Below, in pieces: positions 51,549-64,000 of a DNA stretch of 64,000 nt. A program made the position numbers and the translations under genes. Positions within the stretch are counted from its first letter, which is position 1. Every line of letters begins with the position of its first letter. The stretch lies in NCBI RefSeq assembly GCF_947305105.1, contig NZ_CAMZCS010000017.1, positions 1-64,000 of the forward strand, given 5' to 3'. The DNA comes from an uncultured Fibrobacter sp. (GTDB taxonomy: Bacteria > Fibrobacterota > Fibrobacteria > Fibrobacterales > Fibrobacteraceae). The notes under the pieces were generated by a model, which saw only the letters and a program-made list of their open reading frames with translations, was not told where the DNA came from and did no database searches.

Positions 51549-52610
51549 ATGAAAAAGAAAGAAGCAATAATTATTGGGTGGATAAATTCAGGCAAGCTCG
51601 CGGATTGTGGTGAAACCATGAAAAACCAGTTGTTGATTCAAAAACTGGAATCGTTTGGTGTTCGCTGCCATCAAGTCGATTTCAAGAACTGGCGCAAACA
51701 TCCTTGGGTTTTCTTGCAATTGGCATTGCTTATGCTTTTTCATCGTCGTTATGTGCTTGTTTTTTCGACAAGTACAGTGAATGTATATTCAATGATGAAA
51801 TTGATGAAAAAATTAAGATGGAAGCAGCCTTCTATCCATTGGGTTATTGGCGGGAATTTGGGGAACCAGGTCAATAATGGAATGTATGCGGCGAACGTAA
51901 TCGATTATATTGATTTGACGATTGTTGAAAGCCCGATAATGAAGGAACAGTTGGCGCAAAGTGGAGTGAAAAAAGTCAAGGTCCTTCCGAACTTTAAGCC
52001 GATTCCGTATTATCCCAATATAGACAACCGATTGGCGACTTTGAACAACCGTCCTTTGAAGTTTGTTTTCCTTAGCAGGATTATGTGCGAGAAAGGCTGC
52101 GATTATATATTGGAAAGTGCCAAGATCCTTAATGATGAGGGGCTGGAAAACAAGTACTCGATAGATTTCTACGGAAAGGTCGCCGATTCCTTTGAGAAAG
52201 TTTTTACGCAAAAAGTTTCGAAGCTCCCTAATGTACAGTATAGCGGTTTTTTGAATTTGCGCGACAATGCTGGCTATGATAAACTTGCGGAATACGATGT
52301 CATGTTATTCCCGACTTATTGGAATGGCGAAGGCTTTGCCGGTATTTTCATTGATGCCTTTATATGTGGCTTGCCGCTTATTGCTACAGATTGGGCTCAT
52401 AACAGGCAGTTTATGCAGGATGGCGAAACAGCAATGTTTATTCCTGTTCACGATGTTGTTGCCCTTAAAGAGTGCATGAAAAAATGTATAGAGCAAAAGT
52501 ATAATCTGGCTGAGATGGCAAGAAATTGCCAGAAAAATGCGGCATTGTATGATATTGACAATGTTTTGACATCGCAAACGATGAAAGAGATGGGCCTATG
52601 GCAAGAATAG
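51549..52610 (+). CDS. GT-B-type glycosyltransferase (third of the locus)
   Basis: A 94-bp gap with an AAAGGATGCGAG ribosome site separates it from the second glycosyltransferase. The N-terminal half is unusual, but the C-terminal half has KFVFLSRIMCEKGCDYILESA, DFYGK and the donor-site block FPTYWNGEGFAGIFIDAFICGLPLI. This places it in the GT4-like group. It overlaps the next gene by 13 bp. Substrates unknown. Confidence 0.82.
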   Translation: MKKKEAIIIGWINSGKLADCGETMKNQLLIQKLESFGVRCHQVDFKNWRKHPWVFLQLALLMLFHRRYVLVFSTSTVNVYSMMKLMKKLRWKQPSIHWVIGGNLGNQVNNGMYAANVIDYIDLTIVESPIMKEQLAQSGVKKVKVLPNFKPIPYYPNIDNRLATLNNRPLKFVFLSRIMCEKGCDYILESAKILNDEGLENKYSIDFYGKVADSFEKVFTQKVSKLPNVQYSGFLNLRDNAGYDKLAEYDVMLFPTYWNGEGFAGIFIDAFICGLPLIATDWAHNRQFMQDGETAMFIPVHDVVALKECMKKCIEQKYNLAEMARNCQKNAALYDIDNVLTSQTMKEMGLWQE

Positions 52611-53719
52611 TTTTGTTCGGAGATTTCAAGGTCAATCAGGTGAAACACCTGAATCTGAGCAGTGAGTTGACTTTGTTGCTCAATTCTAGCGATGTCAACA
52701 TGGCTAATTTCGAAGCGCCAATAAAAACGAATGGCGCTCCCTTGAAAAAAAGTGGCCCCAATATTTGCCAGCACATCGAGTCGCCAAACTGGCTGATTGA
52801 CCGGGGCTTCAATGTCGTGTCTATGGCCAATAACCATACAATGGATTTTGGCGAACAGGGAATGGTCGCCACACAAAAGGCTTTCGAAAAAATCGTCACG
52901 GTTGGTTGTGGGCCTTGGGATGAGGCTTATTGCCTTAAAACAATTGACACAAAGGATGGCAAAAAGGTTGGCTTTATCGCATGCACGCAATGTGAGTTTG
53001 GAACGCTAACCGAAAAAGGCGGCTGTGGATGTGCATGGGCCATGAGCCCGGCTATCAATAAGTTGATTGTTGACAGCCGCGACAAAGTGGATGCGTTGAT
53101 TATTATGCCCCACGGTGGCGTTGAGTATATGGACATGCCTCTTCCTGAATGGAGGGAAGTTTACAAGCAATGGATTGATTTGGGCGCAGATGCTGTAATT
53201 GCAAGCCACCCGCATGTTCCGCAAGGCTGGGAAATCTACAAGAACAAGCCGATATGCTATAGTCTAGGGAATTTCTGTTTCGAAGCGCTAAAGGAAAATA
53301 ATGTTCCAAAGCATTGGTATGAGAGCTTGTGTTGCGTTTTGGAAGTTTCGGGCTCTCATGATATTGAAATGCAAATTCGTCCGATCAAGTTCGATGGCAA
53401 GGACCTGTATATTAGTGATAACGATTCTCAGGAGTTCGCTGAGCATTTGAAATGGATGAATGACACGTTGTCTGATGACGAAGCGTACAAGAAGGAAGTG
53501 AACAAAAGCGTAAAAAAACTTCTGCCTCATTATATGGGAATGTTCTCCAGAGGTGGGCTAGTGACCGGTGCCTTGCAGAAGAATTTTATTAAAGGCTTTT
53601 TGGAAGGCTTGATGGGTCGAGGATTTTTCAATAAGGTCCATGCTCTTAATAATATTCAATGCGAGAGTCATCGTTGGGCTATTCTCCGCGCCTTAAGGCT
53701 AAAGGAAAATATAAAATGA
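52598..53719 (+). CDS. CapA-like (PGA_cap) metallophosphatase-fold protein
   Basis: The 373-residue protein matches the capsule-synthesis CapA family: FGDFKVN at the N-terminus, NFEAPI, the MANNHTMDFGEQGM block, MPHGGVEY and ASHPHVPQGWE with its metal-binding His residues, then SLGNF. CapA proteins are needed for poly-glutamate capsules, but many homologues lie in polysaccharide loci. No CapB/CapC ligase genes are present here and no signal peptide is obvious, so a cytoplasmic phosphodiesterase-like role in glycan assembly is possible. It overlaps both neighbours (13 and 4 bp). Confidence 0.82.
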   Translation: MARIVLFGDFKVNQVKHLNLSSELTLLLNSSDVNMANFEAPIKTNGAPLKKSGPNICQHIESPNWLIDRGFNVVSMANNHTMDFGEQGMVATQKAFEKIVTVGCGPWDEAYCLKTIDTKDGKKVGFIACTQCEFGTLTEKGGCGCAWAMSPAINKLIVDSRDKVDALIIMPHGGVEYMDMPLPEWREVYKQWIDLGADAVIASHPHVPQGWEIYKNKPICYSLGNFCFEALKENNVPKHWYESLCCVLEVSGSHDIEMQIRPIKFDGKDLYISDNDSQEFAEHLKWMNDTLSDDEAYKKEVNKSVKKLLPHYMGMFSRGGLVTGALQKNFIKGFLEGLMGRGFFNKVHALNNIQCESHRWAILRALRLKENIK

Positions 53720-54621
53720 AATCTTTGATAAATTTCATTGTCACGATTCTTACTCACTTGCATGTGCTGACTCCGCTTAGAACTTCTAAATTGAAATTCT
53801 TGGTCAAGTGCCATAAATGGCCGAATTTCAAGCATCCGAAGGATGTTAATGAGAAAATCAATTGGATGAAATTCTACGGTGATACATCCATGTGGCCGAT
53901 ATATGCAGACAAGTATAGGGTCCGTGAATTTGTGAAAGAATGTGGGCTGGGCAATACGCTTATTCCTCTGATTGGCAAATGGGATTCTGTAGATGAAATC
54001 GATTGGGATGCCCTACCGAATCAATTTGTGATGAAGTGTAACAATGGAAGTGGCGATGTTGTTGTGTGTACGGATAAAAGTAAACTAGATATCGAAACGA
54101 CCAAGAAACATTTTGAGAAACTGCTCAAGAAAAAGTTGAGCGTATTGTCTGGCGAACTTCACTATGCAAAAATTAAGCCCTGCATTATTGCGGAGCAAAT
54201 GTTGGATGTTTCCACGCAGCCTTGTAATTCTACGTCCCTGATTGATTACAAGGTTTGGGTCTTTGATGGCAAGCCGTTGTTTACGTGGTGTACATGGAAC
54301 CGTCAGCAGTACCATGCAAATGTGGCTGTTTACGACATGGATTGGAATTTTCATCCAGAATGGTCGGTGTGGACGAGCCACTATGTAATGCCGAAGGATC
54401 GTGTCCCAAAACCAGCTTGCTTTGACAAGTTGATGGATGCGGTCAGTCGGTTGGGAAGGGGAATACCCGTAGCCCGTATAGATATGTATGTGTGTGGCGA
54501 AAAAATCTATTTTGGCGAAATTACAATGACTTCGCAGGCCGGATTTATGGATTTCTATACGCAGGAATTCCTGGATAAAATGGGCCAGCTGACTGTTTTG
54601 CCGATAGATTGCGAAAAATAG
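53716..54621 (+). CDS. TupA-like ATP-grasp protein
   Basis: ATG 53716 overlaps the CapA stop by 4 bp (ATGA). The protein of about 301 residues has the TupA-like ATP-grasp pattern: KINWMK near the N-terminus, ADKYRVREFV, the FVMKCNNGSG ATP loop, and DIDMYV/GEITMTSQAG-type C-terminal metal and phosphate motifs (read here as RIDMYV and FGEITMTSQ). Members in teichuronopeptide and exopolysaccharide loci are thought to link amino acids to glycan carboxyl groups. With UDP-glucuronate made in the same operon, amidation of uronic acids is a reasonable inference. Confidence 0.8.
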   Translation: MKSLINFIVTILTHLHVLTPLRTSKLKFLVKCHKWPNFKHPKDVNEKINWMKFYGDTSMWPIYADKYRVREFVKECGLGNTLIPLIGKWDSVDEIDWDALPNQFVMKCNNGSGDVVVCTDKSKLDIETTKKHFEKLLKKKLSVLSGELHYAKIKPCIIAEQMLDVSTQPCNSTSLIDYKVWVFDGKPLFTWCTWNRQQYHANVAVYDMDWNFHPEWSVWTSHYVMPKDRVPKPACFDKLMDAVSRLGRGIPVARIDMYVCGEKIYFGEITMTSQAGFMDFYTQEFLDKMGQLTVLPIDCEK

Positions 54622-55782: not shown

Positions 55783-57057
55783 ATGCAATATTTAATAGCA
55801 GTTGTCTTTTTCATGCTCTTGTGCTATGATTATAAGCGCACCGTTTTTTTGTTGGCGCCATTGCACTTGATTTTGTTGATGCTTGTTTTCCCGGGGGTGC
55901 CGTTTTCAATGAACGAGGTGGTGGCTGCCATGGTGACGGCCCTTGCTCCGTTTAAGTTGAGGCGAAAAGAACGAGACATGATGAGAACGTATCCGTTCTG
56001 GATAGGTTCCGTGGCCATGTTCCTGTCTATTGCCGGGACATCCTACTTCATTGCACCGCATTGGCCTACTGCGATGATGACTTTCAACGCGTATTATATT
56101 TATCCGTTAATCCTTTGGGCCTGTATCGAGACAAAAGAAGACTTGCAGTCCTTGCTGAAGGCTGTCATGATATTTGTCGTTGCCATGGGATTGTACAGCT
56201 TGTTTGAGATGGTGAGCGGTTCTAATCCCGTGATTCGATATATTATTTCAAGTGGAATGGGCAATGATAGTGTTTTGGATTACGACAAGATGCGCTTCGG
56301 TGTTAAGAGGTGCCAAGGATTCTTGTCTACGCCGGCTCCGACTGGACTCATTTATGGGTTGACTCTGGCGACGATTTATTGGGTTACAGACAAATTTTCA
56401 ATAGACATGAAAAAATTCCTATTGTTGCTGTATCCTCTGAGCGCTATTGGCATGTTTATTACAGGGACTCGTTCGGTGATTGCAGCTTCGTGTGTGGCTC
56501 TTCTGGGTGTGGCTGGGCATGAAATGTTGAAAGCTCGATTCATGTTTGTGAAGATTGTCCTCTTGTTGATTGTTTTGGGATTCTGTGCTCCGTTTTTTAT
56601 AGAAGTTATAAACGCCTTTGTCAATACGGACCAGACTTCTGTTGGTGGCAGCAATACCGATATGCGCTTGGAACAGCTGCTGATTAGCTTGTATTATTGG
56701 GCGAATTCCCCGATTTGGGGGAATGGGTCTGGGTTTATCTGGAGTTATGTTCAGGATGTGGACAAGGATATTTATGGAGCCGAGAGTATTTGGTTCCAGT
56801 TGCTTGTGGATTATGGTGCTGTAGGAGCAGTCGCCTATATGACTTGTATTATAAATTCTATGGTAAGCCTCTGTAAAAAGCATTTTATCTGGATTTTCTT
56901 ACCCCTTGGGTTCCTTGTCGGAAAAACGATGTCTACGGTTATAGGCATTGAAATGTCTGTTTTGTTCATTTTCTCTATTATACTCTTGAAGTATGAAATT
57001 TTATTCAATGCAAAAGAAAATGAAAAGGAAAACAAACCGTTAGAGGAAGCCCCTTGA
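55783..57057 (+). CDS. Wzy-like polysaccharide polymerase / O-antigen ligase-family membrane protein
   Basis: The 424-residue protein has about ten to eleven hydrophobic segments and a large extracytoplasmic loop near residues 280-340 (TSVGGSNTDMRLEQL...IWGNGSGF), as in WaaL/Wzy proteins. The Arg-containing GTRS motif in the middle helix region fits the family. It most likely joins lipid-linked repeat units outside the inner membrane. The gene abuts the stop of the GT2 gene and its own stop overlaps the next start (TGATG). No Wzx flippase was found in the window. Confidence 0.8.
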   Translation: MQYLIAVVFFMLLCYDYKRTVFLLAPLHLILLMLVFPGVPFSMNEVVAAMVTALAPFKLRRKERDMMRTYPFWIGSVAMFLSIAGTSYFIAPHWPTAMMTFNAYYIYPLILWACIETKEDLQSLLKAVMIFVVAMGLYSLFEMVSGSNPVIRYIISSGMGNDSVLDYDKMRFGVKRCQGFLSTPAPTGLIYGLTLATIYWVTDKFSIDMKKFLLLLYPLSAIGMFITGTRSVIAASCVALLGVAGHEMLKARFMFVKIVLLLIVLGFCAPFFIEVINAFVNTDQTSVGGSNTDMRLEQLLISLYYWANSPIWGNGSGFIWSYVQDVDKDIYGAESIWFQLLVDYGAVGAVAYMTCIINSMVSLCKKHFIWIFLPLGFLVGKTMSTVIGIEMSVLFIFSIILLKYEILFNAKENEKENKPLEEAP

Positions 57058-58256
57058 TGAAACCTATTTTGGACATCTTGGATAAGAATGATTGTTGCGG
57101 ATGTGGCAGCTGTGCTCAAAGTTGCCCAAAACAATGCATTCGGATGGCTCCGAATCAAGAAGGCTTCTTTTATCCTCAAATAGATCGCGATGCTTGCGTT
57201 GAATGTGGATTGTGCCAAAAACATTGCCCTCAAATGCAGGAACCTATTCGTAGACCCTTGCAGAAAGCCTATATTGTCCAATGTGGTGATGTGGATCGGT
57301 TGGCCAAGAGCGCCTCTGGAGGAGCCTTTGCGGCGCTTGCTACAGGTGTTTTGGAAAGGAATGGCGCTGTTGTAGGTGCTGCTTTCTCGGATGCTCTTGT
57401 TGTGACCCATGTTGTTGTTGAACGCATGGAGGATTTACATAAGCTCCAAGGTTCCAAGTATGTGGCTAGCTTTTTGGGCGACATCTATGGTCAGGTGAAG
57501 TCGATTCTTGCAGAAGGTCGGGAAGTTCTTTTTTCTGGGACACCTTGCCAGATTGCGGGCTTAAATGCATTCTTGTCGAAGAAATATGATAATCTCACAA
57601 CTGTGGATTTGGCATGCCATGGAACCCCCAGCGCGCAATTGTTTGGCGCTTATTTGAAATGGCTTGGCGAAAAACACGGAGAAGTGGTTGAGAAATATTG
57701 CTTTCGCGATAAGGGCCCCAGTGGTTGGGGCATGGTAGGGTCGTTTACCTGCAATGGAACTGTGACAACATTGAATCCTTTCTGCGATCCATATTATGCT
57801 ACTTTCTTGCGAGGGGAGACATATCGAAAATCTTGTTATAGATGTAAATATGCGAACCTTGATCGGCCGGCTGATTTGACAATTGGTGATTTTTGGGGGA
57901 TCTCGCAATATTCGGGAAAGCACGATTTTTCCGAAAAGTTGGGACTGTCCCTGCTTTTGGTGAATACGGAAAAAGGGCGCGAGGTATTCGAGGGCCTCTC
58001 GGACAAAGTGAAATCTATGGGATTGTCTGTAGATGAAGCCTGCGCTGGAAATGGAAACTTGTATCATCCGACAAAAGAACCGGCTATCAGAGATGTGATA
58101 TACAAGAAAATGGAAACGCTGCCTTTTGACGAACTCCAGAAAAACTACTTGGCTCATGAGAGCCCGTTCATGTGGCGCATCAGGCGTTTCCGTCGTAAAT
58201 TGATTCCTCGAAAAATTAGAGATTCCCTTAATCGTTTGTTGCGGCGAAAAAGATGA
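57057..58256 (+). CDS. Coenzyme F420 hydrogenase/dehydrogenase beta-subunit-like iron-sulphur protein
   Basis: The 399-residue protein starts with two 4Fe-4S ferredoxin motifs (CCGCGSCAQSCPKQC and CVECGLCQKHCP), then the FrhB-type N- and C-domains (SGGAFAALATG, GTPCQIAGL, CHGTPS, SCYRCKYANLDRPADLTIGDFWG). In glycan loci such proteins are typically next to a polysaccharide pyruvyl transferase, as here, so they are thought to supply a redox step in ketal-pyruvate decoration; the actual reaction is not known. Fibrobacters are not known to make F420, so the cofactor is uncertain. It overlaps both neighbours. Confidence 0.88.
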   Translation: MKPILDILDKNDCCGCGSCAQSCPKQCIRMAPNQEGFFYPQIDRDACVECGLCQKHCPQMQEPIRRPLQKAYIVQCGDVDRLAKSASGGAFAALATGVLERNGAVVGAAFSDALVVTHVVVERMEDLHKLQGSKYVASFLGDIYGQVKSILAEGREVLFSGTPCQIAGLNAFLSKKYDNLTTVDLACHGTPSAQLFGAYLKWLGEKHGEVVEKYCFRDKGPSGWGMVGSFTCNGTVTTLNPFCDPYYATFLRGETYRKSCYRCKYANLDRPADLTIGDFWGISQYSGKHDFSEKLGLSLLLVNTEKGREVFEGLSDKVKSMGLSVDEACAGNGNLYHPTKEPAIRDVIYKKMETLPFDELQKNYLAHESPFMWRIRRFRRKLIPRKIRDSLNRLLRRKR

Positions 58257-59422
58257 AGCGTGTTGGTATTATTACAATGCATAAGGTGCTGAACTATGGT
58301 TCGGCTCTTCAGGCGTATGCTTTGCAACGTAAAGTGGAAGATTTAGGGTGCCAGGCGACAATCATTGATTATCTGTATCCCAATAGGGAACATTGTGAGC
58401 GCCAGCAGGTCAAATTTTTCCCAAAACGCAGTTTGGTCCATTTCGCCTTGATTGCTTTGGTTGGCGTGCTGCTGAAGATACTCCGGGTAAAATCGAAAAA
58501 GAAAAAGGCCGATGCCGCGATTCGCCGGTTCCGGCAACACTCGGCGTTCCGTGCTTTTTATCGGAAGTATTTCAAACTCTCAAAGGAATATACGACGATA
58601 GAATCGTTGATGGATTCTCAGGAATGCTACGACATTTATATGACGGGCAGTGACCAGGTGTGGAATCCGCAGTACATGGTGGACGATCCGAATTTTTTGC
58701 TTGGCTTTGCGCCTGCGGGTGCTAGGAAGTATAGCTATGCCGCAAGTTTTGCCGGAAAGGCAATCCCAGAAGGTTCGGTGGAACTCTATCGAAAGTATCT
58801 GGAACAGTATAAGCGCATTTCGGTCCGGGAACAGTCCACTTCGGATGTTGTTAAAGGGCTGATTGGCTCCCCGGCAGAGATTGTTTGCGATCCGTCATTA
58901 TTGCTGGATCGGGAAGAATGGTTGAAATTCTGCCCGGCTGCTCCTTTGGTCAAGGAAAAATATTTGTTGGTCTATATCCTGCATTATTCTTTTGACCCGT
59001 ATCCATCGATTATTCCTTTTGTAAACAAACTTGCCCGCGAACGCAATTTGCAAGTCGTGGTCCTTCATGGCCTCAAAGAAGGCTATAGTATTGAAGGGGC
59101 TTTGTCTTTTGACAGCGTCGGGCCTGTCGAATTTCTCCGCTTGTTCCGGGATGCGTCGCTGGTGGTGACCACATCGTTCCATGGGACTGCTTTCTCGCTG
59201 AACTTTGGTCGGGATTTTTACTCTGTCGTCAAGCAAATAAATGGTTCCGATAGTCGCGTCGTTGATTTGCTTTCTGTTTGCGGAGCGCGTCACCATTTGG
59301 TTGAACTCAATTCCCTAGAATCTTTGCAGGGCAGTTCGGTGGATGCGATGGAAACAGAAAAACTCAGTGAATTCCGAAATCGCTCCATTGATTATTTGCA
59401 GAAGATTTTGACAGAAGACTAA
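58253..59422 (+). CDS. Polysaccharide pyruvyl transferase family protein
   Basis: The 389-residue protein has the family's N-terminal block (NYGSALQAYALQRKVEDLG), the GSDQVWNP motif, SYAASFAGK, DPSLLLD and the C-terminal TSFHGTAFSLNF. Members transfer pyruvate from PEP onto a hexose as a ketal, adding negative charge to surface polysaccharide. It overlaps the iron-sulphur gene by 4 bp. Its stop lies 3 bp from the stop of the convergent PssE-like gene, with no hairpin terminator between. Confidence 0.88.
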   Translation: MKRVGIITMHKVLNYGSALQAYALQRKVEDLGCQATIIDYLYPNREHCERQQVKFFPKRSLVHFALIALVGVLLKILRVKSKKKKADAAIRRFRQHSAFRAFYRKYFKLSKEYTTIESLMDSQECYDIYMTGSDQVWNPQYMVDDPNFLLGFAPAGARKYSYAASFAGKAIPEGSVELYRKYLEQYKRISVREQSTSDVVKGLIGSPAEIVCDPSLLLDREEWLKFCPAAPLVKEKYLLVYILHYSFDPYPSIIPFVNKLARERNLQVVVLHGLKEGYSIEGALSFDSVGPVEFLRLFRDASLVVTTSFHGTAFSLNFGRDFYSVVKQINGSDSRVVDLLSVCGARHHLVELNSLESLQGSSVDAMETEKLSEFRNRSIDYLQKILTED

Positions 59423-60390: not shown

Positions 60391-62283
60391 TTATCGGAAG
60401 GTTGCAGTATAGACTGCTTTGTCCGTTGGCGATATGGTGCGCGGATTTTCACGAGATCCGTCTTCCCATTTGTCAAAAATGAAGCCTTCGTCCGGTTCGG
60501 CTGTCAAGATCATGTCGACATCCCCGAAAAATTTCCCTGTGTAGTTTCCAGGAACAGACCGGCCTTCTATGAGAATTTTCCCATGACCTATGGAATTGAA
60601 TGACAGGGTAATCTCTTTGGGCAAATCGAACTCTTTCTTGTATTCTTCCCAGATGTCGATGTCCCTTTGCTTTGCCCATGTTTTCATGGTCTCGCCGTCT
60701 TTATAAAAAGTGAGTGTCCGGTGGAATCGGCTCAGGTCGCGGTCCATTTCATCTGGATCCAATTGAGAAACTGTTTTGTCTACGGCTTTCTCTACGTTCT
60801 CGCTGTTGAAAAAACGGTTGAACAGGATGGCCGAGCGGTGCAAGAATTTTTGCTTGAACTTGGGGTTTTCGATAATGGCTGTGAAAAAATTGCCAAATTC
60901 CTTTTTCACTGATCTTTTCCGGATCCATTCGAACATGGTTTCCGTTTCGTCAAAACCGTTGATTGTCCTTTCGTAATCAAAGCCATAATCTATATCGAAA
61001 ACGATGAACTTCCAAAGAGTACTGGGGGTTTTCCATGCCCTCACGTTGTTGTGTGGCCAATCGTCATTTTGTGCATAGACTTCGTAAGCTATATAGTCTG
61101 CGAAGTTGTTCATGTCTATTTGCGCTTCAAGCCAGTTGTAGTTTTCTTGATGGTCCTTGTCGAAAGAGTTGTTCAAGATGAATTCCATCAATTCGTAGTA
61201 GTCATTTGTCCCGTCATTTGTTTTGATGTCCCCGTTTCCGTTGTGCTTCGCAATGGTGACGATGTCGTCATCTATGCCGTGATTTGTTTCGATGAAGTGC
61301 TTGTTGATTTTCTCTCGGAGGTCGTGTATGCCGTAGTAGCGGCCGTTGTAGAAAACGACGACTTGCTGGCTTCTCTGGTAGTCCAGTCCCGTTCCTTCAA
61401 GAATTCGCGTCGCTGCCGCGTCGCCATAGAAATCACGACCAAAGCGGGAACCATTGTTACGCAATAAGAATGACTTGAACTTGTTTGCCTCTGGCCTGGT
61501 ATCGAATAGAGGATAGACTAGTTTCCCTTCTTGATATTCCTGCCTCATTTCGATTTTGACAGATTTTTTCGGCCACCAGCGACTATAGTTGCCGGCGAAC
61601 GAAATGCCTGCGTCTATTTCGAAATCGCTTTCTGTGGACTGGCTCCCCTTGCTGAAATATTCAACGTGAACAGGAAATTCGATGTCTTCCCAATAGGGCG
61701 CAGTCCTGCATGGTTCTGCGCAGGTAGATCTGTTGTTTATGTAGTATTCCTTCAGAAAGACCGGATCCACTGTGATGGATACGATGGGCATTTTTATGGC
61801 GCTGTCGATAATAAAGGTGTGCGTCTCTATGGGGGTTACAGGGATGTTGTCCTCGAAACCTGTGCAGCGTACGATCGAGTTTTTTTCGACAGGGATGCTT
61901 TCTTGAAAGATCGGGGAATCGTTTGTTGGAACAGATCCGTCAGTGGTGCAGTGCACGACCATGTTGGAATTTGACGTTTGAAGTGCGATTGATACGGATT
62001 TGTTACAAATATGTGTTTTGGCGTTATAAAAAAAGAGACGAGAGTCGTCGATCAGTTCAAGCTCGCTGGAATCTGCGGTGTTCACTTCTTTGGCAAAATA
62101 GGTGTTGCCTGTAGCGTAGGCATCTACTTTAGAAAACGAAAGAAGAAACTCAGAAGCGGTGTTGTCTTCAAGGAGTTGTCCAAGGGGCTCATCAAGGGGT
62201 TCTTCAAAGGGAAACGACGAATTGCTGCACGCAATCATCAGATTTGTCGCAAAGAGGGAAAATGCCTTAATGCGCCATTTCAT
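60391..62283 (-). CDS. CotH-kinase lipoprotein (third copy, without lamin-tail domain)
   Basis: The 630-residue protein has a lipobox (NLMIAC), a spacer, a chitobiase-like beta domain (about 85-160; VHCTTDGSVPTNDSPIF), a CotH kinase-fold domain (about 190-540) and the C-terminal repeat (WEDGSRE). The kinase-like motifs are NDDWPHNN and FDIDYGFD, slightly changed from the other two copies. The lamin-tail domain is missing. It starts 1 bp after the stop of a GT2 gene, so it is transcribed with glycan genes, linking CotH proteins to this locus more directly than the two copies upstream. Confidence 0.84.
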   Translation of the reverse strand: MKWRIKAFSLFATNLMIACSNSSFPFEEPLDEPLGQLLEDNTASEFLLSFSKVDAYATGNTYFAKEVNTADSSELELIDDSRLFFYNAKTHICNKSVSIALQTSNSNMVVHCTTDGSVPTNDSPIFQESIPVEKNSIVRCTGFEDNIPVTPIETHTFIIDSAIKMPIVSITVDPVFLKEYYINNRSTCAEPCRTAPYWEDIEFPVHVEYFSKGSQSTESDFEIDAGISFAGNYSRWWPKKSVKIEMRQEYQEGKLVYPLFDTRPEANKFKSFLLRNNGSRFGRDFYGDAAATRILEGTGLDYQRSQQVVVFYNGRYYGIHDLREKINKHFIETNHGIDDDIVTIAKHNGNGDIKTNDGTNDYYELMEFILNNSFDKDHQENYNWLEAQIDMNNFADYIAYEVYAQNDDWPHNNVRAWKTPSTLWKFIVFDIDYGFDYERTINGFDETETMFEWIRKRSVKKEFGNFFTAIIENPKFKQKFLHRSAILFNRFFNSENVEKAVDKTVSQLDPDEMDRDLSRFHRTLTFYKDGETMKTWAKQRDIDIWEEYKKEFDLPKEITLSFNSIGHGKILIEGRSVPGNYTGKFFGDVDMILTAEPDEGFIFDKWEDGSRENPRTISPTDKAVYTATFR

Positions 62284-62284
62284 T

Positions 62285-63304
62285 TCACTTCCCGCTGGAC
62301 TTGAACAATAATTCTGAAATAAACTTCATTGGGCCATGGCAAGATATGCAATGGTACAATGCTTTCATTTTCCCGATGAGCGAACGCTTTTGGTAATGGG
62401 ATGTCGTCTTTAATTTTGTCCACATCCCATAATCCCAATACAAATTGAAGTTGTTGAGGTCTATTTTTTCTTGGATGGCTTTGGAATATTGATATTTAGT
62501 GAATTTGTCGTAGCTGCGAAGCGATTTTTCACAACCTTCTATATGGGCCGATCTCTTCGCGAAAGCCTGTTTCCCGATTAAAGTGGAACTGGACCATGAA
62601 CCTTGGCTGAAAATCCGGTACACAGACATGGCCTCGGGCATATAATGAACTCTGCCAGCGTATGCACAAGACAATATTAAGGGGAAATCGCCGACAGGGC
62701 TTACGTCCCAATATTCTTCGGCATAGAAATTCTTGATTTCGGTATGATAGACAATGGTGTTCGTGCCGAAAAAGCCGCCGCCCCCTAAAATTATTTCTTC
62801 GGTGGGGATGTCGCGCGCTGTTTCGAATTTGGGGAATAGCCCTTCGATATTGCCTGTTCTGTCGTTGAGTTTCATGCAGCGGTGAATGACCGCAGAACAA
62901 TCAGGGTGCGATTCTAGATAACTTATTTGACGCTGTAACTTTTGCGGATCGGTCCAGAAGTCGTCCCCTTCGCATACGGCAATATATTTGCTGTTCAGCA
63001 TCGAATTGACGATTCTGGTGAAACTGCCGTCGTTCTTGGAATACTGATTTTCTGTTTCTATCAGGGGCTTTATAATCTTGGGATATTTTTCAGCGTATTC
63101 CTGGATGATTTTGGCGGTGTTGTCCGAGGAGGCGTCGTCGTGTACACAAACTTCGAATGGAAAGTCCGTTTCTTGGATTAGGAACCCCTCTAGACACTGT
63201 GCGATGAATTTTTCGTGATTGAACGCAGTGCAACGGATGCTCACGAGAGGTTTCTCGTTTGCAGGCCATTTGGCTGTCACTTCATCTTGGGTTCGGGTTA
63301 TCAT
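62285..63304 (-). CDS. GT2-family glycosyltransferase (minus strand)
   Basis: ATG 63304 starts the protein 19 residues before the conserved VSIRCTAFNHEKFI; an upstream in-frame ATG (63367) would place the TATATT -10 boxes inside the coding region. The 339-residue protein has the GT-A motifs VCVHDDASSDNT, AVCEGDDFWTD (DxD-like) and GDFPL. It is a single-domain glycosyltransferase. It is the first gene of a minus-strand operon with the third CotH gene. The short tandem repeat upstream carries its likely promoter. Confidence 0.85.
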   Translation of the reverse strand: MITRTQDEVTAKWPANEKPLVSIRCTAFNHEKFIAQCLEGFLIQETDFPFEVCVHDDASSDNTAKIIQEYAEKYPKIIKPLIETENQYSKNDGSFTRIVNSMLNSKYIAVCEGDDFWTDPQKLQRQISYLESHPDCSAVIHRCMKLNDRTGNIEGLFPKFETARDIPTEEIILGGGGFFGTNTIVYHTEIKNFYAEEYWDVSPVGDFPLILSCAYAGRVHYMPEAMSVYRIFSQGSWSSSTLIGKQAFAKRSAHIEGCEKSLRSYDKFTKYQYSKAIQEKIDLNNFNLYWDYGMWTKLKTTSHYQKRSLIGKMKALYHCISCHGPMKFISELLFKSSGK

Positions 63305-63335
63305 ATATTTTAAAAGAACGGCTTTAAATGTTGCA

Positions 63336-63373
63336 TACTGTGGACAAATATATCGTACTGTAGACAAATATAT
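63336..63373. repeat. Two tandem 18-bp copies upstream of the minus-strand GT2 gene
   Basis: TACTGTGGACAAATATAT (63336-63353) and TACTGTAGACAAATATAT (63356-63373) differ at one base and have a period of 20. On the minus strand each contributes an ATATAT-type -10-like box. Confidence 0.75.
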
Positions 63374-63475: not shown

Positions 63476-64000
63476 ATGGCAAAGACTGTTTATCTAGGAA
63501 TGATTGGTGACATTATGCACCCGGGCCTCATCAATATCATCAATGAAGGGGCCAAGTATGGCGACGTGATAATTGGGCTTTTTACGGACAAGGCGATAGC
63601 GACGCATAAGCGTCTTCCGTACTTGAACTACGAACAGCGCAAGAATGTCATCGAGAATATCAAGGGCGTTTCGAAAATTGTTCCCCAGGACGAGTGGAGC
63701 TACGTAGAGAATCTGAAAAAATACAAGCCGGACTACATCATCCATGGCGATGACTGGCTTTATGGCCCGGACAAATATATCCGTGACGAGGTATTCAAGG
63801 TCATGGAATCCTTGGGCGGGAAGGTCATCGAGATTCCCTATACGCAGGGCATCACTTCGACTGGGCTTAAAAAAGAAATTGAATCGCTGGGTACGACCCC
63901 GCAGGCAAGGCTTTCTTCGCTGCGTCGTCTGATTGCGGCCAAGCCGATTGTCCGCATTCTGGAATCCCACAACGGGCTTACGGGCCTTATCGCAGAACAT
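63476..64000 (+). CDS. Cytidylyltransferase-phosphoenolpyruvate mutase fusion (3' partial)
   Basis: The frame runs off the window after 175 codons. Residues about 1-140 are a nucleotidyltransferase of the cytidylyltransferase type (GMIGDIMHPGLINIINEGAKYGDVIIGL; a degenerate HxGH, here HPGL; YTQGITST near the end matches the ISTT-type motif). From about residue 145 the sequence changes to the start of a PEP mutase (LSSLRRLIAAKPIVRILESHNGLTGLIAEH). PEP mutase makes phosphonopyruvate, the first step of phosphonate biosynthesis; the fused transferase suggests CMP activation of a phosphonate. Placement beside glycan genes suggests phosphonate decoration of the polysaccharide. Confidence 0.82.
   Translation, partial: MAKTVYLGMIGDIMHPGLINIINEGAKYGDVIIGLFTDKAIATHKRLPYLNYEQRKNVIENIKGVSKIVPQDEWSYVENLKKYKPDYIIHGDDWLYGPDKYIRDEVFKVMESLGGKVIEIPYTQGITSTGLKKEIESLGTTPQARLSSLRRLIAAKPIVRILESHNGLTGLIAEH

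Follow-up and report, generated by a model that had tools for sequence, protein, structure and literature searches.

The window, i.e. the whole stretch of 64,000 bases that was analysed, comprises bases 1-64000 of contig C17 (65,362 bases) in a Fibrobacter MAG of 3.57 Mb (99.97 % complete, 2.69 % contamination), so that 1,362 bases of the contig lie past it. The open reading frame starting at 63476 on the + strand is still open at the window edge (64000), and its full product has 436 amino acids. This gene and its companions in the surface-glycan locus are listed below.

55783..57057, + strand: Wzy/O-antigen-ligase-like membrane protein of the glycan locus
58253..59422, + strand: polysaccharide pyruvyl transferase of the same locus
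62285..63367, - strand: family 2 glycosyltransferase, divergent neighbour of the fusion gene and part of the same locus
63476..64000, + strand: the first 175 of the 436 codons of the gene fusing a cytidylyltransferase-like domain to PEP mutase (pepM/ppm); the gene ends at C17:64786
63476..63883, + strand: PF01467 cytidylyltransferase-like domain, residues 1-136; nearest solved relative, the cytidylyltransferase domain of Fom1 (5x3d)
63518..63529, + strand: HPGL, residues 15-18; the corresponding motif of Fom1 and other active relatives is HxGH
63920..64000, + strand: first part of the PEP mutase domain (residue 149 onwards); the active-site motif is encoded farther along this contig, past the window edge

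The cut gene encodes a PEP mutase, the C-P-bond-forming enzyme, in a Fibrobacter surface-glycan locus. An earlier note on this DNA had claimed a PEP mutase fused to a cytidylyltransferase-like domain, and the profiles bear this out: residues 12-106 match PF01467 (46 bits, Pfam cut-off 21), residues 149-407 match PEP_mutase PF13714 (179 bits, cut-off 31.5), and the protein scores 405 bits with TIGR02320 against an NCBIfam equivalog cut-off of 320. The structures matching the PEP mutase domain, 5unc and 1m1b, are separate from the Fom1 structure nearest to the N-terminal domain. Reading on past base 64000, as the note had proposed, revealed the rest of the PEP mutase with the active site IIEDKVGLKQNSLFG, which fits the Ppm signature EDKxxxxxNS; the motif whose absence would have spoken against the note is thus present.

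Further genes were observed in this part of the window. Beside the glycan locus, at 60391-62283 (-), lies a gene for a lipoprotein-like CotH-domain protein with Fn3-associated and CHB_HEX_C domains, and at 52598-54621 (+) a PGA_cap capsule protein gene adjoins a TupA-like ATP-grasp gene.

The cassette beyond the window

The phosphonopyruvate decarboxylase gene (ppd) predicted just beyond the window is indeed there: a TIGR03297 gene adjoins the fusion gene directly downstream, starting at C17:64800 and running off the contig after 187 aa. With the region that follows in a relative as DNA query, the remainder was located on contig C46, at the end of that contig. The ends of C17 and C46 have 55 identical bases in common, and the two contigs joined give an intact decarboxylase of 375 amino acids, the join being based on the 55-bp overlap and synteny, in a MAG. 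The decarboxylase of the relative L034 matches TIGR03297 over its full length (522 bits). On C46, ppd is followed by genes for a metallophosphoesterase (242 aa, resembling 3rqz), an SDR (332 aa, resembling dTDP-glucose 4,6-dehydratase, 6bi4), a DUF6564 protein (247 aa) and an oxidoreductase (393 aa), in this order. The identical order was found on unbroken contigs of other Fibrobacter, e.g. L034 (contig of 449,936 bp) and L036. G045, whose completeness is 100 %, has the cassette as well.

Past the cassette, C46 carries three LicD genes, DegT, a Wzx flippase and a Wzz/tyrosine-kinase protein. Because there are glycan genes on both the C46 and the window sides, the cassette lies inside the glycan locus; the earlier note was right about the glycan setting, and the edge at which it placed the gene is only that of the contig. 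The location also bears on the use of the product. The closest solved relative of the cytidylyltransferase domain, Fom1, belongs to fosfomycin biosynthesis, which would suit a soluble phosphonate (antibiotic or phosphorus store) with no surface decoration; we regard this as very improbable for a cassette that sits among Wzx, Wzz, Wzy-like and LicD genes, and LicD genes repeatedly adjoin pepM relatives. Cassettes of several types have a DegT aminotransferase gene next to pepM (L121, L123, L034, L156, L159, and contig C46, L119:10883-13306), often together with LicD and a gene for an ATP-grasp-like protein, and these genes are possibly a linked glycan module.

The DUF6564 protein, which matches its family with 311 bits, is predicted to be a LicC/PntC-like nucleotidyltransferase. 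The best PDB match of the DUF6564 profile is LicC (1jyk, E 0.0012), and the AlphaFold model (pLDDT 69) has LicC (1jyl) as its top Foldseek match, with PntC (6pd2) among the matches. AGxxxRF(N), LKCL and EGD are invariant in 11 homologues, and their Arg, Lys and Asp correspond to the nucleotidyltransferase signature G-x-x-x-R...K plus the Mg-binding Asp. DUF6564 is thus like LicC and PntC (1jyk, 6pd2) in predicted fold, in its N-terminal nucleotide-binding motif and, with respect to PntC, in gene position, whereas the sequence similarity is barely detectable and DUF6564 has its own Pfam DUF. We found no mention of DUF6564 in the open-access literature searched.

The oxidoreductase begins with a GxGxxG Rossmann motif and has a weak Pfam match below the cut-off. 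Its model (pLDDT 73) gave weak Foldseek matches to malate dehydrogenases (TM about 0.5), and profile comparison with the Fibrobacter malate dehydrogenase was not significant (probability under 1 %); in view of this value we do not claim a malate dehydrogenase-like identity, despite the likeness in motif and fold search. Our guess would be that the enzyme reduces phosphonoacetaldehyde or reductively couples it to an amine.

The fused cytidylyltransferase-like domain

In this superfamily, the second His of HxGH takes part in catalysis. The motif reads HPGH in Fom1 and HPGL in the window protein, and on a pepM tree of 101 sequences its loss is one change on one branch (SH-aLRT 100 for the HPG[L/Y] clade), all 89 members of the clade having Leu or Tyr at this position. 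A separate LicC-like transferase, PntC or DUF6564, is encoded near 81 of the 85 HPG[L/Y] loci with sufficient flanks (four more of the 89 were truncated and left out); the exceptions are L053 and L057, where no PntC was seen, and L076 and L083, where pepM is at the contig start. No separate LicC-like gene was found near any of the 10 two-domain fusions with intact HxGH (HHGH, HPGH, HTGH). The Fisher p of 1e-10 for HxGH state versus separate transferase is descriptive only, because the loss is a single event and the cases are not independent.

Within the HPG[L/Y] clade the mean identity of the cytidylyltransferase domain, 78 %, is close to that of the PEP mutase domain, 81 %; omega was 0.01-0.04 and 0.005-0.02, respectively, in close pairs only, dS being saturated for most pairs. 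Residues L18, K39, H44, W74 and S75 (window-protein numbering, counted by hand) are specific to the domains of this clade. Conservation at the level of the mutase together with clade-specific residues argues for a retained, altered role and not for decay. Judged from its motif, the fused domain lacking the second His most likely no longer catalyses activation, and the strong purifying selection on it suggests that it probably still has a function, either structural or in ligand sensing.

It had been proposed in the earlier note that this domain could make a CMP-activated phosphonate for transfer to sugars. The logic of activation plus transfer stands, with a LicC-like protein in the cassette and LicD nearby; the fused domain as the activator is doubtful, because of its HPGL motif and the separate DUF6564 gene. 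Conceivably, the fused domain has kept its cytidylyltransferase activity in a rearranged active site, DUF6564 acting elsewhere, e.g. on a sugar phosphate made with the SDR. H44 and K39 are fixed in the clade, conservation of the domain is strong and includes several fixed positions that differ from the HxGH-intact relatives, no second transferase is visible at L053 and L057, and triple fusions indicate that two transferase domains can coexist (PMC6697681). We nevertheless find an active fused domain rather unlikely, given the change of the second His to Leu or Tyr and the presence of a separate LicC-like gene at nearly all such loci and at none of the HxGH-intact two-domain loci.

Some loci depart from the general pattern. 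At L053:5174-9853 and L057:9989-14678 the HPGL fusion is accompanied by an AEP transaminase and a CDP-alcohol phosphotransferase-like gene with no visible PntC, thus HPGL may still work; these two loci are the chief exception to the reading of a decayed domain. Triple fusions of the order LicC-like::PF01467::PEP mutase were seen at eight loci (L153-L158, L161, L162), followed by a decarboxylase and an Fe-ADH-type gene; the motif is HSGH in the two where it was read. An intact HxGH therefore does not exclude a second transferase, and we rejected the strict rule that it does. L159:5036-7837 and L160:3624-6372 each have a pair of neighbouring PEP-mutase-type genes (motifs HGGH and HPGH), the second gene with ~350 extra N-terminal residues.

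Exchange of back ends

The genes following pepM-ppd were labelled type A (PntC and AEP transaminase), type B (phosphoesterase, SDR, DUF6564 and oxidoreductase, as here) or type C (Fe-dependent alcohol dehydrogenase). Type C was found at L121-L123, from three other Fibrobacter genomes, and at L134, L135 and L169. An Fe-dependent alcohol dehydrogenase is what one expects in a hydroxyethylphosphonate route, and it is absent from the cassettes with the DUF6564/oxidoreductase back end. On the 101-sequence pepM tree the A/B/C label undergoes at least 13 changes, and A and B swap even among near-identical Fibrobacter pepM genes. The AEP module and the DUF6564 module replace each other behind a common pepM-ppd front end, also across phyla.

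Among 80 Fibrobacter genomes the pepM fusion is present in 26 (partial copies included), the oxidoreductase in 20 and the AEP transaminase in 4; the latter two never occur in the same genome (0/80). The oxidoreductase is accompanied by pepM in 18 of its 20 genomes (Fisher p 6e-10 for co-occurrence in the 80 genomes), the other two, G020 and G053, being incomplete MAGs. In Bacteroidales, the four-gene back end follows pepM-ppd at L058, L064, L071, L074, L080, L081, L099 and L102; in a planctomycete MAG (L085) the SDR is missing from it, and in a 'Deltaproteobacteria' MAG (L049) it starts and then meets the contig end. In one Bacteroidota family 56 of 349 genomes have pepM and two have DUF6564, in both cases 3-4 kb from pepM. 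Between Fibrobacter and MAGs of Bacteroidales, planctomycetes and Akkermansia the identity of pepM is 80-91 %, a level that suggests horizontal transfer within gut communities.

We also observed other arrangements. At L052 and L055 (also L062, L068 and L072) pepM-ppd-PntC has no AEP transaminase nearby, and at L052 and L055 a polyprenyl-synthetase-like gene follows; this is perhaps a further back end. L136-L139 have pepM (HHGH), ppd and AEP transaminase beside a gene whose sequence is CDP-alcohol phosphatidyltransferase-like, a probable phosphonolipid pathway. In assemblies G052 (C11, C133) and G040 (C14, C8) pepM occurs more than once and is interrupted by contig breaks, which suggests that multi-copy cassettes break these assemblies.

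The earlier note had also foreseen an aminotransferase just beyond the window and an aminoethylphosphonate-type product. There is none at the cassette, and a search of the whole genome for the AEP transaminase TIGR03301 (PhnW/AepZ) gave 42 bits at best, against a cut-off of 361. Since the enzyme is absent from both cassette and genome, an AEP product is not predicted. It could be argued that AEP is made all the same, by an ordinary aminotransferase encoded elsewhere (the DegT on C46, within the same glycan locus, or a class I enzyme), and activated by the fused domain. AEP has been reported in bacterial polysaccharides: PMC9311074 cites Baumann 1992 for this and also Vinogradov 2001, a study of the outer-membrane glycans of F. 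succinogenes S85. In our view this explanation is unlikely. A dedicated AEP transaminase accompanies pepM at 51 of the 89 HPG[L/Y] loci of the tree and in no cassette with the four-gene back end, and the HPGL motif speaks against activation by the fused domain. DegT also adjoins loci of the alcohol-dehydrogenase type, hence it is no specific replacement, and we rejected it as a substitute.

Proposed pathway and comparison with known systems

We consider it fairly probable that the locus is a phosphonoglycan cassette in which a phosphonate other than AEP is activated by DUF6564 and transferred by LicD, the fused domain being most likely non-catalytic. By family membership, PEP mutase would convert PEP to phosphonopyruvate, and the product of the next gene would decarboxylate this to phosphonoacetaldehyde. 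Without transamination to AEP, the conserved set of metallophosphoesterase, SDR, DUF6564 and 393-aa Rossmann oxidoreductase may turn the aldehyde into another phosphonate, probably by NAD(P)H reduction; hydroxyethylphosphonate or a derivative is the simplest guess. Fold, motif and linkage suggest that DUF6564 activates it as a CMP-phosphonate, which the neighbouring LicD would move onto the glycan. The fused domain, its second HxGH His lost, would no longer take part in activation and may serve a structural or ligand-sensing role. More tentatively, and with the odds rather against it, the four-gene set, with a new oxidoreductase family, could be a third, undescribed finishing route for surface phosphonates, leading from the shared phosphonoacetaldehyde to a CMP-phosphonate that is neither AEP nor plain HEP, with the fused cytidylyltransferase as a non-catalytic regulatory domain and the module crossing gut phyla and swapping with the AEP module.

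The aepXYZ-type AEP cassette of Bacteroidota, e.g. that of the Bacteroides fragilis capsular polysaccharide, consists of PEP mutase, Ppd, AEP transaminase and PntC. Our cassette shares with it homologous pepM and ppd genes and the glycan setting, and its pepM is 80-91 % identical to many rumen Bacteroidales copies, whereas phosphoesterase, SDR, DUF6564 and oxidoreductase stand in place of AEP transaminase and PntC. HEP-type loci of Fibrobacter and Bacteroidota, some in the same genus (L121-L123), have the PepM-Ppd front end and nearby LicD in common with it; unlike our cassette, they have an intact HxGH in the fused domain, an Fe-ADH and no separate nucleotidyltransferase.

Fusions of PEP mutase with a cytidylyltransferase are already known: in the survey of Rice et al. 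2019 (PMC6697681) PF01467 is fused to 23.6 % of Ppm proteins, and some loci were noted to have a nucleotidyltransferase nearby in addition to the fused one. The Fom1-type Ppm/PF01467 fusions of Pnt systems (PMC6697681) have the same domain order and both Pfam families as the window protein, which differs in having lost the second His (HPGL). A term search of the survey text found no mention of this motif. Within the open-access literature searched, the back end free of AEP transaminase, the fact that it and the AEP module exclude each other, and the HPG[L/Y] clade appear unreported.

The steps after phosphonoacetaldehyde in surface phosphonate pathways have been called enigmatic (PMC6697681), and at that point this locus offers, in place of the AEP branch, a compact alternative that recurs. 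AEP should not be deduced from the presence of pepM and ppd in a genome. The cassette provides a testable function for DUF6564 and for an orphan oxidoreductase family, and it offers a possible answer to why many loci have two cytidylyltransferases: in the HPG[L/Y] clade the fused one looks catalytically dead.
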